A stretch of DNA of 64,000 nucleotides from Thermodesulfobacteriaceae bacterium. GTDB lineage: Bacteria > Desulfobacterota > Thermodesulfobacteria > Thermodesulfobacteriales > Thermodesulfatatoraceae. The stretch lies in contig WGCA01000004.1 of NCBI GenBank assembly GCA_015494065.1, positions 1-64,000 on the forward strand, written 5' to 3'. Position numbers and translations under genes: made by a program. The stretch's first letter is position 1, and each line of letters begins with the position of its first letter. The notes below the pieces were generated by a model that ran no database searches, had not been told where the DNA came from, and was given only the letters and a program-made list of their open reading frames with translations. This document shows positions 36,891 through 44,333 of this stretch, piece by piece.

Positions 36891-38075
36891 CTAGTGTTCG
36901 TCTACGTGACCCCGAAAGATACGCTCACCCATAAAGAAGAGCATACCGCAAAGGCCGAAGCCTCCCAGCACCACGAGCCATTCATAAAGAGAGGGAGTGT
37001 AGGAATAATAATGGGGCATATCAACGATTCCGAGCCCGTGATAATGCGGCACGATCTGGCCCACTACCACCAGGTCGTATCTCATGACGAAGATCGCCAG
37101 GAGGGCCAGCCCGGAGACGATGGCCATGGCCGGGATGTTGCGGGCCTTAACCGCCAGGATCACGATAAAGGGCAGGATCAAACCGAGCCCGATCTCAAAG
37201 AACCAGAAGTTGAAGGCGTAAGGTCCGGTGAGCAGGGCCATCATGGCTTCATATTTGCCAGGGGGATGTCCCGCAAGCCCGGAGATGACTTTCCAGGTGG
37301 TGAAGAACATGACGACCGCGAGCAAGAGGGCGTAAACCTTACCCGTTACCTGGAGGGCCTTTTCCATTTTGGCGTCCATCTGCCAGCCATTTACCTTGTA
37401 GGCCAGCCAAGTAAAGAAGATGATGGCGGCGCCCCCGCTCATCATGGCAGAAGCGATGAAGTAAATGGGCATATAAGGTCCATGCCAGAACTCGCGGCTA
37501 TTAAGTAGCCCAAAGACGGCACCCAAGTTACTGTGGGCCGCCACACCGGCGATTACTCCAAAGAGCCCGGCCAAACCTGCCTTTTTGTGTTGACCAAGCT
37601 TGAGCAGGGCAAACTCTACCAGCATGAAAAAGAGGTACGCACCGTAGAGGGTCCCCATCCACCAAATGTTAGAAGTGGGGTTTGCGGAGATGAGGTTGTA
37701 GATAGGCATGCGCCAGGGGTTTTCAAGCTCAAAACCGATTACCGCAAAACCAGCAAGAATGGTGGCGATAGCCAAAAACACACTTCTGCTCGCGATGGGC
37801 ATCATGCTCTTGACCCCGAAGACGTGCCCGATGGAGGAGGTGAGACAAAGCCCGGTGGAAGTTACCACAAAGAACACGTAGGTGGAAATGAGAATACCCC
37901 AAGGAACCTCCCTGGTGACCCCGTAAACATGCTCGTGGCCGGCAATAAAGGAATAAATCCCTACCGCTAAACCTACGGCAAAAAGGAGCCCAAACAGCAG
38001 AGCCAACCAGGTGTTCGTTTTACTTGGAGCTATTACTAGCTCCCGACCCAAGACTGCTTCCCTAACCTCTGCCAT
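36891..38075 (-). CDS. NrfD/PsrC-family polytopic membrane subunit (NrfD1)
   Basis: VFFVVTSTGLCLTSSIGHVFGVKSMMPIASRSVFLAIATILAGFAVIGFELENPWRM; about 10 TM. Confidence 0.88.
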   Translation of the reverse strand: MAEVREAVLGRELVIAPSKTNTWLALLFGLLFAVGLAVGIYSFIAGHEHVYGVTREVPWGILISTYVFFVVTSTGLCLTSSIGHVFGVKSMMPIASRSVFLAIATILAGFAVIGFELENPWRMPIYNLISANPTSNIWWMGTLYGAYLFFMLVEFALLKLGQHKKAGLAGLFGVIAGVAAHSNLGAVFGLLNSREFWHGPYMPIYFIASAMMSGGAAIIFFTWLAYKVNGWQMDAKMEKALQVTGKVYALLLAVVMFFTTWKVISGLAGHPPGKYEAMMALLTGPYAFNFWFFEIGLGLILPFIVILAVKARNIPAMAIVSGLALLAIFVMRYDLVVVGQIVPHYHGLGIVDMPHYYSYTPSLYEWLVVLGGFGLCGMLFFMGERIFRGHVDEH

Positions 38076-38309
38076 AACACCCTCCTACAAATTTTTTTGT
38101 AAAAAAAAGTGTTAAACCCATAGCACCCTTTTTGTAACACTGATTGTTTTATACATTGCCTAATTAATGTTGTCAAGATATTTGTAACTATTGGTTAACC
38201 TATTAGTTATCAGTTAGCTTTCTAATGTTAATTATCAATAAATAGAAGAATTTTGTGACAACACGAATTGTAACAAAATAGGAAATATTTATTGTCAACT
38301 AATAACCAA

Positions 38310-38332
38310 AATCCCCCTTAGATAGGGGGATT
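38310..38332 (-). terminator. putative terminator downstream of merR
   Basis: AATCCCCCT-N5-AGGGGGATT hairpin followed by TTTGGTTATT on minus strand. Confidence 0.5.
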
Positions 38333-38390
38333 AAGCGAGGGTGCTATGGCAGAGGCTAGGGCGCAAAATTCGCCCGGGATTAAATTGCGG

Positions 38391-38711
38391 CTATTGTTCT
38401 GTTTCGTCCTTTTTTACCGCGGAAAGATAAGCGGTACACTTAGCCCTTACTTCCGGGGGACAACCCACAATGCTCCAGCAGGGGGCATATTTCAACACTT
38501 CTTTTACCCCCGCGATATTAAGTCCCTTTTCGTGGATCATTTTACGCAGGCAATTAATCCACTGGATATTGTCCATCGAATAGTAACGTCTGGTCCCTCT
38601 TCTTACTGGCTTGATCAACCCCTCTTTTTCGTAAATACGCAAAGTTCTCGGGTGAACTTCCAGCAATTTAGCCGCTGTTCCTATGGAAAAAATGGCTTTG
38701 TCTCTTTTCAT
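38391..38711 (-). CDS. MerR-family regulator with C-terminal Cys motif
   Basis: FSIGTAAKLLEVHPRTLRIYEKEGLIKPVRRGTRRYYS; C-terminal PCWSIVGCPPEVRAKC. Confidence 0.85.
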   Translation of the reverse strand: MKRDKAIFSIGTAAKLLEVHPRTLRIYEKEGLIKPVRRGTRRYYSMDNIQWINCLRKMIHEKGLNIAGVKEVLKYAPCWSIVGCPPEVRAKCTAYLSAVKKDETEQ

Positions 38712-38771: not shown

Positions 38772-39968
38772 TTAGTGTTCCCTGCTTTCAAAGACTCCGG
38801 CAAAGTAACGTTCTCCGAGCAAGAAGGCCGTTACCATCAAGCTTATCCCGCCGATGATGACGAGGATTTCCGCACCAGAAGGAGTGTAGTGGAGGTACTT
38901 GGGGATGCCTTCAAAAAGCCCGTAGTACGGGTGAACGATCTGTCCAGCCACCACCAGGTCATACCTCTGGAAGAAGGCCCCGATGAGGGTGATCAAGGCC
39001 GCCAGGAAGGCCGCGTGTACGTTTTTAAGCCCACCGGTAGCCAGGATGATGATAGGGATAGCCAGGCCCAGGGCAATTTCAAAGAACCAGAAGTTGAAGG
39101 CCAGGGGACCGTTTAACAGGGCTTTGGCCGCCAGTCGGCCCGCGTCAGAGCCGCTGGTAAAGATGGCCAGGAACCGCCAGATGGTAGCCAGAGAAACCGC
39201 CACCAAGAAGAGCAGAAGGACTTTGCCCGCCGCCGCCGTGGCCCTTTGCATGGCGTCATCCATGGGTTTATTACGCACCTCATAGGCGATGTAGTTGAAG
39301 ATGATGAGGGACGCTGCTCCGCTCATAAGGGCCGAGCAAATGAAATAGATGGGAAGTTGGGCCCCGAACCAGAAAGGCCTGGAAGCGATGAGGGCAAAGA
39401 CCGCCCCAAGATTAGTATTGGCCGCTATCTCCGCCAAGGCCCCAAGCAGACCCAGGGCAAAGGCTAGGGCGTACCGTTTGGTAAGGATCAACACGAATTC
39501 CAGGATCATGAAAGCCACGCAGGCTCCATAAAGGGCACCCATCCACATGATGTTGGAAGTCAGGTTAGGGGTGACCATCATCCAGTACATGCGCCAGGGG
39601 TTCTCAAGCTCAAGACCGATGATGGCAAAGCCGGAGATAATGGCCGCAATAGAAAGGAATAAAGCCCGGTTAGAAAGGGGTAGAAGCGAAGTTCCCCCAA
39701 ATAGGTGCCCCAAAACCGAAAGGATGCAAAGACCGGTGGACATAATGGCAAAATAGATGTAGCCGGCGATCAACAAACCCCACGGCATCTCCCGAAATAC
39801 GTTGTAGGCGTGATGGTGCCCCACTATCATGGCGTAAACGCCGGCCCCAAGGCCTACCACCGTCAGTAGAAAGGCCAGAACCGTTAAGAGAGTAATCTTA
39901 GGGGTGGCAAAACTTAGATCCACCTGGAATGGTTTTAGTGTTTCAACTCTGGTTTCAGCCATGGCCAA
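38772..39968 (-). CDS. NrfD/PsrC-family polytopic membrane subunit (NrfD2)
   Basis: YFAIMSTGLCILSVLGHLFGGTSLLPLSNRALFLSIAAIISGFAIIGLELENPWRM; paralogue of NrfD1. Confidence 0.88.
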   Translation of the reverse strand: MAMAETRVETLKPFQVDLSFATPKITLLTVLAFLLTVVGLGAGVYAMIVGHHHAYNVFREMPWGLLIAGYIYFAIMSTGLCILSVLGHLFGGTSLLPLSNRALFLSIAAIISGFAIIGLELENPWRMYWMMVTPNLTSNIMWMGALYGACVAFMILEFVLILTKRYALAFALGLLGALAEIAANTNLGAVFALIASRPFWFGAQLPIYFICSALMSGAASLIIFNYIAYEVRNKPMDDAMQRATAAAGKVLLLFLVAVSLATIWRFLAIFTSGSDAGRLAAKALLNGPLAFNFWFFEIALGLAIPIIILATGGLKNVHAAFLAALITLIGAFFQRYDLVVAGQIVHPYYGLFEGIPKYLHYTPSGAEILVIIGGISLMVTAFLLGERYFAGVFESREH

Positions 39969-39993: not shown

Positions 39994-40224
39994 TCAATGG
40001 GCTTCTTTTTCTTCCTCAAGCCATTTGGGAATGGAAAAAGTGGCGAAAAAGGCAGGGATCGCCGCAAAAGGCCCCAGCGCCAGGAACATTATGAAGCAAA
40101 ATGCGCCCAGCGTATATTCGGCCACTTTGCCTACGAGGCCTTCCCCGGCCTCGGTCACCGCAACTTTATCTTTCTCCGGCCCGTGAAAGGGAATTAATTG
40201 TTTTAAAGTTTGGATAGCTTTCAT
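39994..40224 (-). CDS. small membrane protein preceding nrfD2
   Basis: 76 aa, one or two hydrophobic segments, good RBS (GGAGGGATT), same strand and close to nrfD2. Confidence 0.6.
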   Translation of the reverse strand: MKAIQTLKQLIPFHGPEKDKVAVTEAGEGLVGKVAEYTLGAFCFIMFLALGPFAAIPAFFATFSIPKWLEEEKEAH

Positions 40225-40346
40225 GATAATCCCTCCTTTCGCTGAAAAAACCCCGTTAGCTAATATTAATACCGATAATTCTCAAAATCCTTCGTCTTAA
40301 TTTTTTAAATTTTTCTTTAAACCATCTCTTTCACTTTTTCTTATAA

Positions 40347-40363
40347 TGCATTTGTCATGCCAA
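40347..40363 (-). promoter_or_regulatory. putative sigma54 (-24/-12) promoter TTGGCATGACAAATGCA
   Basis: Reverse complement of 40347-40363; GG-N10-GC spacing exact; 2 mismatches to TTGGCACGNNNNTTGCA. Confidence 0.65.
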
Positions 40364-40458
40364 CTTGGAGAAAGATTTACACTCTTAGCCGGAAGCCTTG
40401 AGGATCAAAAGAAAAGGGAAGAGTTAAGACAAGAAAACCTGGAAATGCTTTAGGAAGA

Positions 40459-40477
40459 TGGGCTTAAAATGATCCCT
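40459..40477 (+). promoter_or_regulatory. 19-bp repeated element copy 1 (putative enhancer site)
   Basis: TGGGCTTAAAATGATCCCT, 15/19 identical to copy 3. Confidence 0.5.
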
Positions 40478-40491
40478 TTCACCAGAAAGGG

Positions 40492-40510
40492 AGGGCGCAA
40501 ATTAAGCCCA
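40492..40510 (-). promoter_or_regulatory. 19-bp repeated element copy 2 (putative enhancer site)
   Basis: AGGGCGCAAATTAAGCCCA, exact reverse complement of copy 3; internal GGGC-N9-GCCC. Confidence 0.55.
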
Positions 40511-40578
40511 AAGAAATAGTGCTATGGTGGTAGATTTCCAGGAAATTTGGAAATAATTGTTTCCGGTTTAGGTGAAAA

Positions 40579-40597
40579 TGGGCTTAATTTGCGCCCT
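40579..40597 (+). promoter_or_regulatory. 19-bp repeated element copy 3 (putative enhancer site), overlapping the activator stop codon
   Basis: TGGGCTTAATTTGCGCCCT. Confidence 0.55.
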
Positions 40598-42626
40598 GTA
40601 GTTGAATGCCGTATTTACGTAGCTTTCGCCGCAAGGTGTCTTTGGAGATGCCAAGTTCACGGCAGGTAGCCAATTTTTTCCAGTTATTTCTCTTTAAAGC
40701 CTGCAGGATCGCTATTTTTTCGATTTCTTCCAAAGTCATGGGTTTTTCAAAAGAAAGATCCAGGACGTCTTCTCTTCTCGGTTTATACAGGTGTTCGGGT
40801 AGGTGTTCGGGATAGATAAGGCCCTCTTTACAAACAATAAAGCAGTATTCAATAATATTTTCTAATTCTCGTACGTTCCCGGGAAAATCATAATCCATAA
40901 GGATTTTTAAGGCCTCATCTGTAATACCAATGATGTCCTTTCCTTTACTAGCCCTGAACTTTTGAATGAAATGTTCCACCAGAAGGGGAATGTCTTCTTT
41001 TCTTTCCCTTAGAGGAGGAAGATGAATGCGGGCTACGTTTAGGCGGAAAAAAAGATCTTGTCTAAACAGACCTTTTTCAACTAATTCTTCGAGATCTTGA
41101 TTGGTGGCGGCGATAATACGAACATCGGCCTTTTCGGGTTTGGTAGCCCCTAAAGGTTCATATTCATGGGTTTCCAAAACTCGTAAAAGTTTTACTTGAA
41201 GGGACAAAGGTATTTCTCCTATTTCGTCAAGGAAAAGGGTTCCCCCCTTGGCAATAGCAAAGCGGCCAGGTTTATCTTTTTTAGCGTCAGTGAAGGCCCC
41301 CGCTTTGTAGCCGAATAGTTCGCTTTCCAAAAGGGTATCCGGTATGGCGGCGCAATTGACCGCAATAAATGGTCCGTTCCGTCTAGGGGATAAATCATGG
41401 ATGGCCCGGGCAAAAACTTCTTTTCCCGTGCCTGATTCTCCGGTAATCAGAACGGTGCTTTCACTTTCTGCAATATCAGGTAAAACTTCTAAAATACGTT
41501 TTATTTTTGGGCTTTTAGAAATTATATCATTGAGCTGGTAATTTTTGTCTAATTCCTTACGTAAGGTAAGAATTTCGCTTAAATCTCTAACTGTTTCTAC
41601 TGCACCAATCAATCTGCCTTCACTGTCTTTGATGGGGGCCACCGTAATAGAAACAGGTACCTTTCTGCCGGACTTATGAATAAAATAAGTGTGTTTGTTA
41701 GATATTTTTTTCCCTTCTGAGATAGCTTTTACAACTGGACACTCTTCTTTGCAAAGTTCACTTTTAAATATTTCTGAGCATGGCTTGCCTAAAACTTCAT
41801 TAATATTGTAGCCTATTATTCTTTCCATTGCTGGATTATAACATGTTATATGAAAATAGTTATCAACTGCAAAAACTCCATCTCCAATATTTTCTAAAAC
41901 CGTTTTCATTTGAATTTCAAAGCTAATATCTCTAAATATCTCCAATCCACCTACCAATTCTCCTTTAATAAATAAGGGGCTTGCGGTAATTTCAACGGGA
42001 AATTGGGTCCCGTCATATCTAGTTGTAAAGATGCCAGAACGTTTTATTGGTCTTTTTTCTTTGATACTCTTTAATAAGATACAATTTTCTCCACAAATAT
42101 TTGTCTTGAAAACTTCATCACAGTATTTTCCTATAACATCGTTTGCGCTATATCCTGTTAATATTTCTGCTGGTTGATTAAATAAGGAGATCTTAAAATG
42201 GCTGTCCACAATAAATAGTGCATCTCCTAAACTATCAAGTATGTCATTAACAAAGTTAGATGGTATCTGTTCGTTTAATATTACAACTATTGATACAATC
42301 TTATCTTTTTCTGTGTTTTTTATTGGATAGGCGTTTAAGTATATTACCTTTTTATATTCTTTGTCTTTTAAATAGATAGGAAACTGATAAACAGGCTCTC
42401 CCTTGGCTAGTTGCTGTTTTATGAGAATGCAAATTTCTTTTTCTATATGTTTTTCAAATATTTGATAGCAAGATTTATTAATTACATCTTTTTTGTTTTC
42501 TCCTAATATCCTTTCGGCTGTTTTGTTAAAATAAATTATACGGAATTGATCATCTACTACAAAAATGCCTTCAGAAATTTTGTCTAGAGTGTTTTCAAAA
42601 ATTTGATATATTTTTTCGTTAAACAT
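40584..42626 (-). CDS. sigma54-dependent activator with three PAS domains (PAS3-AAA+-Fis)
   Basis: Three PAS repeats, GESGTGKEVFARAIH, ELFGYKAGAFTDA, GTLFLDEIGEIPLSLQVKLLRVL, Fis HTH C-terminus. Confidence 0.92.
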   Translation of the reverse strand: MFNEKIYQIFENTLDKISEGIFVVDDQFRIIYFNKTAERILGENKKDVINKSCYQIFEKHIEKEICILIKQQLAKGEPVYQFPIYLKDKEYKKVIYLNAYPIKNTEKDKIVSIVVILNEQIPSNFVNDILDSLGDALFIVDSHFKISLFNQPAEILTGYSANDVIGKYCDEVFKTNICGENCILLKSIKEKRPIKRSGIFTTRYDGTQFPVEITASPLFIKGELVGGLEIFRDISFEIQMKTVLENIGDGVFAVDNYFHITCYNPAMERIIGYNINEVLGKPCSEIFKSELCKEECPVVKAISEGKKISNKHTYFIHKSGRKVPVSITVAPIKDSEGRLIGAVETVRDLSEILTLRKELDKNYQLNDIISKSPKIKRILEVLPDIAESESTVLITGESGTGKEVFARAIHDLSPRRNGPFIAVNCAAIPDTLLESELFGYKAGAFTDAKKDKPGRFAIAKGGTLFLDEIGEIPLSLQVKLLRVLETHEYEPLGATKPEKADVRIIAATNQDLEELVEKGLFRQDLFFRLNVARIHLPPLRERKEDIPLLVEHFIQKFRASKGKDIIGITDEALKILMDYDFPGNVRELENIIEYCFIVCKEGLIYPEHLPEHLYKPRREDVLDLSFEKPMTLEEIEKIAILQALKRNNWKKLATCRELGISKDTLRRKLRKYGIQLQGAN

Positions 42627-42695: not shown

Positions 42696-43088
42696 TTAAT
42701 GGTGGTGTTCTTTTACTTTTGTTTCACCTTGAAGACGTTGCCAACCCAGCACTCCTATATGGCAGGTGGTGCACTTGCGGTTAGAAGCGAAAGCCATGTC
42801 ACCATTATGGCAAGCCCCGCAATATTTGCCCTCATAAAGAGACTTCATATTAAAATCTTCGTTTTCTTCTGCCGTACCAGCTGCCATTTCAAAAAGCTCA
42901 TCATGACAATCATCACAGCTAAGCCCTGCGTCTTCTATGTGTTTTTTGTGGTCAAAAACCACCGCCTTCACCGGTTTGGTAAAAATAATAGGTTCTTCGG
43001 GATATTCTTCTTCCTCTTGTCCCCAAAGGGGTTGATAGAGAGCAAAGGCAAAAACAATTAATAAGATGAGAAAAAGCCAGCGCTTCAT
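42696..43088 (-). CDS. periplasmic c3/c7-type trihaem cytochrome c
   Basis: Signal peptide; CDDCH, CGACH, CTTCH; FDHKKH. Confidence 0.85.
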   Translation of the reverse strand: MKRWLFLILLIVFAFALYQPLWGQEEEEYPEEPIIFTKPVKAVVFDHKKHIEDAGLSCDDCHDELFEMAAGTAEENEDFNMKSLYEGKYCGACHNGDMAFASNRKCTTCHIGVLGWQRLQGETKVKEHHH

Positions 43089-43109
43089 AAAGGCCTCCTT
43101 AAGAGATTA

Positions 43110-43883
43110 TTAACCGAGTCCATCGATGGTATAAAAAACATTGGGTTTGGCTCCGGTTTCGGGTCTTAAAACCCAGATTGCCCGGGAAGGATCGTGAACG
43201 ATTTTATAGACCCTGCTTTCTGGGTCAGCCAAATCACCAAAGATACGTACCCCCGCCGGACAGGCGGCCGCGCAAGCCGTTAAGGTCTCTCCTTTAGAGA
43301 GCCTTGATTCCCAACAAAAATCACATTTGTCAACGGCCCTTTTCTCTTCGTTGAAATAGCGCATGTCATATGGACAAGCGACCATACAGGTCTTACAACC
43401 GATGCATTTTTTGGGATTCATGCGCACAATGCCGGTCTTTTTGTCTTTAAAGGTGGCCTTGGTGGGGCAAACCCGTACACAAGGGGGGATATTACAATGA
43501 TTACAAAGTACAGGCATAAACTGCCGTTCATATTGTTGGGGGCCTACCACCAATCGCCTTTCGAAAATTTTGGTACGCCAGCCGTAGGGAGGTACGTGGT
43601 TGGTGCGTACACAGGCCTCCATGCACAGCTGACAGTCGACACAGCGGTCAGTAATGAGGACCATAGAATAATGCGGTTTGTAAGGAAATTTGTCTACGTA
43701 CTCAGGCGCAGCCCCAAATACCTCCTCAGCCTTAGATACGAGAGACAATATCGTCCCGCCGGCAAATACTCCGGTAACCTTAAGCCCCATTTTTAGGAAG
43801 GCCCGCCTTTCCTCAACGGGAAGGTGTTCTACCCCTTCGTTTTTTAAGCTTTTGAGCCATTTACCAAATTTTTTGAGATCCAT
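43110..43883 (-). CDS. Tat-exported 4x[4Fe-4S] ferredoxin-like subunit (DsrO/PsrB/NrfC family)
   Basis: ERRAFLKMG twin-arginine motif; CVDCQLCMEAC, CNHCNIPPCVRVCP, CIGCKTCMVACP, CDFC...CAAACP. Confidence 0.9.
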   Translation of the reverse strand: MDLKKFGKWLKSLKNEGVEHLPVEERRAFLKMGLKVTGVFAGGTILSLVSKAEEVFGAAPEYVDKFPYKPHYSMVLITDRCVDCQLCMEACVRTNHVPPYGWRTKIFERRLVVGPQQYERQFMPVLCNHCNIPPCVRVCPTKATFKDKKTGIVRMNPKKCIGCKTCMVACPYDMRYFNEEKRAVDKCDFCWESRLSKGETLTACAAACPAGVRIFGDLADPESRVYKIVHDPSRAIWVLRPETGAKPNVFYTIDGLG

Positions 43884-43908
43884 AGACTCACCCCTCTATC
43901 AAATTTGC

Positions 43909-43940
43909 AAAAAAAAGCCCCCCAGCGGGGGGCTCTTTTT
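43909..43940 (-). terminator. terminator downstream of the tetrahaem cytochrome
   Basis: AGCCCCCC-AGC-GGGGGGCT followed by poly-T on minus strand. Confidence 0.8.
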
Positions 43941-43955
43941 CATCTTAAAACCGGC

Positions 43956-44333
43956 TTACTTTTTGTGACAACCGTTACACTTGGTCGGCGCATTGGGATG
44001 TTTGGCGTGCATCTGCTTGTGGCAACCCTTACAATTCTTATGAAAGGCCTTCATAGGCTTATTGAGTTTTTTGTTGGGGAAGTTCTTGTTGTGGCATTCA
44101 TGACAGGGTTTGATTTTCATACCCTCTTTGTAAGGAGAATGACCCGGCCCGTGGTGACATTCACCGCAAGGGATATTCAGTTCAGTCTGGTGTTTCCAGT
44201 GATGGAAGACCACGTCACCTTTTTTGGCTTTTAGCGTAATAGTTTCAGGACCTTTTCCTCCCGCTACCGCAAACCCGTAAAAACTCAAACCTACAGCTAA
44301 TCCCACCACCATTCCTATCAATTTACGCACCAT
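43956..44333 (-). CDS. tetrahaem cytochrome c3-like protein
   Basis: Signal peptide; CGECH, CHECH, CKGCH, CNGCH; FHHWKH. Confidence 0.88.
   Translation of the reverse strand: MVRKLIGMVVGLAVGLSFYGFAVAGGKGPETITLKAKKGDVVFHHWKHQTELNIPCGECHHGPGHSPYKEGMKIKPCHECHNKNFPNKKLNKPMKAFHKNCKGCHKQMHAKHPNAPTKCNGCHKK

Follow-up and report, generated by a model that had tools for sequence, protein, structure and literature searches.

The locus described here lies in a window of 64 kb, the whole stretch of DNA that was analysed. It comprises a gene for a one-component enhancer-binding protein, a predicted −24/−12 promoter of the σ54 class, three copies of a palindromic element and genes for a small membrane protein, an NrfD-family membrane subunit (NrfD1) and a MerR/HspR-like regulator (Table 1). 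The small membrane protein is kept throughout the family, and Desulfogranum has a similar open reading frame between its promoter and NrfD. The MerR gene follows NrfD1 in nearly all loci, and the terminator-like hairpin beyond it probably ends the σ54 unit. NrfD1 scores 43.2 bits against the nitrite-reductase NrfD model (TIGR03148; cut-off 347.6) and 23 bits against DsrP (NF045798; cut-off 350, which the second NrfD, at 40 bits, does not reach either). It also misses the HmcC cut-off, so that only the broad NrfD superfamily fits; judging from that family, the protein would take part in quinone-linked electron transfer.

Table 1. Features of the predicted σ54 locus and its surroundings. Scores are in bits, from a matrix built on taxa outside the Thermodesulfatator loci.
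Feature	Position	Strand	Basis or remark
One-component enhancer-binding protein: three PAS, AAA+ with GAFTDA loop, Fis-type HTH	40584..42626	minus	Pfam
Predicted activator-binding site 1 (distal)	40579..40597		matrix score 22.4
Predicted activator-binding site 2, AGGGCGCAAATTAAGCCCA	40492..40510		matrix score 22.4
Predicted activator-binding site 3 (proximal), TGGGCTTAAAATGATCCCT	40459..40477		matrix score 17.8
Predicted σ54 −24/−12 promoter, TTGGCATGACAAATGCA	40347..40363	minus	direct reading, conservation, sense-strand enrichment
Small membrane protein (promoter-proximal gene of the unit)	39994..40224	minus	ORF
NrfD1, NrfD-family membrane subunit, main target gene	38772..39968	minus	Pfam PF03916; 76 related loci
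MerR/HspR-like regulator, with which the unit probably ends	38391..38711	minus	Pfam
Fourth site, AGGGCGCAAAATTCGCCCG, before the second NrfD gene	38358..38376		matrix score 23.7, best in the window
Terminator-like hairpin	38310..38332	minus	3' of the MerR gene
Second NrfD gene	36891..38075		own TTGACA-N17/18-TATAAA-type (σ70-like) promoter at 38176-38147

A first-pass annotation, made from the letters of this DNA, had proposed a complete σ54 circuit and aimed its promoter at a unit of small protein and NrfD. That part of the assignment stands, but the second NrfD gene has a promoter of its own, and the likely unit is small protein-NrfD1-MerR. A second σ54 unit before the second NrfD gene was rejected (no strong promoter in 14 loci), as was σ54 control of the Fe-S/cytochrome unit (strong promoter in 0/51) and of the activator gene itself (0/49). 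A strong terminator hairpin (42672-42643) separates the activator gene from the genes upstream of it (42696-44333), which encode cytochrome c7, an Fe-S protein and cytochrome c3; these proteins are likely partners of NrfD, yet their genes lie outside the control of the σ54 promoter.

The PAS-AAA+-Fis activator that had been placed beside the promoter is recognizable by Pfam as a triple-PAS protein with a σ54-interaction AAA+ domain (PF00158, 237 bits) and a Fis-type HTH (PF02954). The best NCBIfam model, PrdR (NF041552), gives 451 bits against a cut-off of 795, and identification as PrdR was rejected on this ground. Near-full-length orthologues occur in the host genus and in one other genus of the family, and a shorter one in another family. 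The recognition helix ISKDTLRRK is almost invariant among orthologues, and the loop reads GAFTDA in 34/34; this sequence is among the tolerated variants of GAFTGA and occurs in the σ54 activator DVU2106 (PMC4641369). A C-x8-C-x3-C motif shows no variation in PAS3 across the 34 orthologues and hardly any in PAS2; in PAS1, a pair of cysteines is partly conserved. The conserved cysteines of PAS2 and PAS3 suggest, as a guess, that the activator might sense a redox or sulfur signal.

The promoter proposed in the first-pass annotation has exact GG-N10-GC spacing and two mismatches to TGGCACG-N4-TTGCW, both outside the GG/GC core; Desulfobulbales promoters are near-consensus. By itself the match is at chance level: the window contains 18 σ54-like sequences with at most two mismatches, against 25 expected in shuffles. 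The promoter claim could therefore not stand on this sequence alone, and its significance comes from conservation across genomes, GG-N10-GC being kept in 9/9 genomes whose sequence reaches the promoter. The host genome carries rpoN (PF04552, E = 3.6e-62). No IHF consensus was found between sites and promoter.

All three 19-bp elements of the annotation were recovered, and at the enhancer distance it had given (about 120-260 bp): their centres lie approximately 132, 165 and 252 bp upstream of the predicted transcription start at 40336. Site 3 starts about 115 bp from the −24 element and site 2 lies 148 bp from it, the latter distance matching most Desulfobulbales loci. The activator stop codon (40584-40586) falls inside site 1. 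As had been claimed, site 1 is the exact reverse complement of site 2, and both contain GGGC-N9-GCCC. However, a 17-bp palindrome, GGGCGCA-N3-TGCGCCC, in which one half-site has drifted (to GGGCTTA here), describes the element better, so that calling one copy inverted means little. The genome scan that the annotation had suggested, run with the degenerate 19-mer on the 2.03-Mb genome, returned three exact matches, all within 139 bp at this locus, and no further match with 0 or 1 mismatch; the remaining matches have two.

The arrangement is conserved. Promoter and three sites lie beside the same activator in eight Thermodesulfatator-family genomes and in one genome of another family, nine in all, at near-fixed spacing. 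In the eight family genomes the region from the activator stop to the small-protein start is poorly conserved; the exceptions are three blocks resembling the sites, TTGGCAT-N6-TGC and the ribosome-binding region. The distance between sites 1 and 2 is 86-87 bp in 7/8 of these genomes and 99 bp in the other; 22-33 bp separate sites 2 and 3, and from site 3 to the −24 element it is 114-125 bp. In every Thermodesulfatator-family genome examined, site 1 overlaps the stop codon of the activator gene or lies next to it. G010, a more distant genome, has three near-perfect palindromes, GGGCGCATTTTGCGCCC, in the corresponding region; its gene order (activator, NrfD, MerR, small protein, Fe-S protein) is rearranged, with sites and promoter still before NrfD.

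Relatives of NrfD1 were found in 76 loci, mostly of Desulfobulbales and deltaproteobacterial MAGs, which cluster the same genes: activator, Fe-S protein, cytochrome c7, NrfD and MerR. A strong −24/−12 promoter lies upstream of 58/90 NrfD genes in the sense direction, as opposed to 1/90 antisense and 3-4/90 inside the genes (some of the 90 are cross-hits to the second NrfD type). A de novo search for dyads in 53 NrfD upstream regions, none of them from the Thermodesulfatator loci, yielded CGCA-N3-TGCG in 22/53 regions (0.3 expected), GGCG-N7-CGCC in 18/53 (0.25 expected) and GGGC-N9-GCCC in 10/53 (0.3 expected), with GCGC-N5-GCGC also among the top dyads. All of these describe one palindrome, hence the motif GGGCGCA-N3-TGCGCCC, which is that of the window. 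A matrix seeded with it finds 156 sites, at least one in each of the 53 regions and three or more in 41/53, against about 2 sites in total when the regions are shuffled. The placement is rigid: 39/53 regions have a pair of sites at approximately −149 and −182 relative to the −24 element.

Site and activator DNA-binding domain travel together, as judged from sequence comparison. The promoter is present in 48/48 loci with the activator in the flank and in 7/16 loci where it is absent from the flank. We had predicted that genomes with sites but no flanking activator would encode an orthologue elsewhere, and 10/10 do, each at 608 bits or more, with a GAFTDA loop and ISKDTLRRK or VSKDTLRRK as recognition helix. 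Genomes without sites, predicted to have no orthologue, were without the activator HTH in 8/8 cases, showing either no match or a different HTH such as GIEKTTLWRKM, the weakest secondary match being left outside this classification; the genomes in both counts are related and several, in the 8/8 set too, are incomplete MAGs, so that these are not independent trials. The pairing of activator and sites proposed in the first-pass annotation is thus supported even where the activator gene lies elsewhere. In the host genome, none of the further matches listed (up to 2 or 3 mismatches) combined a good matrix score with a nearby σ54 promoter; a wide regulon was rejected on this basis, although weak sites may exist, and here the activator appears to regulate a single target.

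One could envision that the sites belong to another regulator, for instance the MerR/HspR-like protein, whose gene is so constant a neighbour of NrfD1, and that a different activator serves the σ54 promoter. However, four loci devoid of sites (L106, L107, L112 and L127) keep the MerR gene while their genomes are without the activator HTH. In addition, the placement of the sites 110-250 bp upstream of the −24 element, with the proximal pair about three helical turns apart, is that of enhancer sites. We consider such an arrangement very improbable. Slightly less credit still can be given to the idea that the repeats act in RNA, so that the inverted pair and a small hairpin would terminate the activator mRNA or form a stem that stabilises its 3' end. 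Minus-strand RNA does fold better than shuffles (z = −3.93), and sites 1 and 2 pair at 19/19 positions in this genome. Yet pairing falls to 10/19 in one relative and to 15-16 in several others, no Rfam match exceeds a gathering score, and the better folding arises because single sites are themselves palindromes. Furthermore, Desulfobulbales sites sit upstream of NrfD, with the activator gene 2-3 kb away and often on the other strand. That promoter and repeats are chance similarities is hardly conceivable, since promoter-like matches alone do occur at chance frequency in the window but conservation across families and the co-occurrence tests speak against it.

The locus is thus very probably a self-contained σ54 switch, in which the PAS-AAA+-Fis activator would drive the small protein-NrfD1-MerR unit. 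Its parts, their conservation, the motif, the spacing and the co-occurrence of motif and DNA-binding domain emerge from sequence comparison; for activator binding, looping, start site and signal we infer the following course. The PAS-AAA+-Fis protein would bind as dimers to the three 17-bp palindromes, and its PAS domains would receive a signal, probably a redox or sulfur-compound cue, upon which the active oligomer would assemble. DNA looping and ATP hydrolysis would then open the σ54-RNA polymerase complex at the promoter, and the transcript, starting at about 40336, would span the genes of the small protein, NrfD1 and MerR. Several points count against the switch, namely GAFTDA in place of GAFTGA, a strong fourth site without a σ54 promoter and the two promoter mismatches.

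The working principle of such a circuit is already well known. Its nearest published analogue appears to be the DVU3142-ohcBAC circuit of Desulfovibrio, predicted by comparative genomics, in which a one-component σ54 activator likewise adjoins a membrane complex for electron transfer, whose subunits include Fe-S and multihaem c-type proteins, and is accompanied by conserved binding sites and a σ54 promoter (PMC4641369). The likeness is one of layout and logic: the loop of DVU3142 reads GAFTGA and its target is the octahaem Ohc complex, whereas the protein described here has GAFTDA and would control an NrfD-family complex. The σ54 activator of the DVU2106-orp operons shares GAFTDA (PMC4641369, PMC3897727) but controls cell-division genes, which are unrelated to the targets here. 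PrdR-type PAS σ54 activators (NF041552) have a similar PAS-AAA+-HTH layout. By gene content (small one-helix protein, periplasmic Fe-S protein, NrfD-type subunit and multihaem cytochrome), the present set resembles the TMH1-dsrOhPh-tetrahaem locus of cable bacteria, reported in a 2026 paper as of unknown function and found in Desulfobulbales (PMC13047784). The word "sigma" is absent from that paper's text, and in the literature searched we found no paper linking σ54 or enhancer-binding proteins to this NrfD cluster or describing the activator or its motif.

These results provide an uncharacterised, widely kept membrane electron-transfer module with a predicted dedicated regulator, binding motif and promoter, forming a switch that is kept across many sulfur-metabolising bacteria. 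GGGCGCA-N3-TGCGCCC offers a handle to find the circuit in new genomes. The activator's signal, once found, would tell when sulfate reducers and their sulfur-disproportionating relatives use the NrfD complex. It is tempting, though doubtful, to go further and regard the activator as an undescribed sensor that is phylum-deep and responds to redox state or to sulfur compounds, and whose PAS2 and PAS3 cysteine triads might bind a cluster, a metal or a persulfide and so switch on the NrfD complex. If so, the sensor would govern a quinone-linked complex in sulfate reducers and sulfur disproportionators.

The matrix built from outside taxa places its five best matches in the window at the four sites of Table 1 and at 40091-40109 (20.6); the sixth scores 13.0. 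The fourth site, which has the highest score, lies just past the MerR gene and has weaker counterparts in two relatives; no σ54 promoter follows it, and it may act from a distance or as a repressing site. The match at 40091-40109 lies inside the small-protein gene and may be due to chance, since the site-like match of one relative (G001) sits at a different place in that gene. Finally, six genomes keep a pair TTGACAAT ... (A/G)TTGTCA upstream of the second NrfD gene (38248-38298), and most relatives have a further TTGACAAT, or its complement, between sites 1 and 2; these elements are possible candidates for binding sites of the MerR/HspR-like protein.
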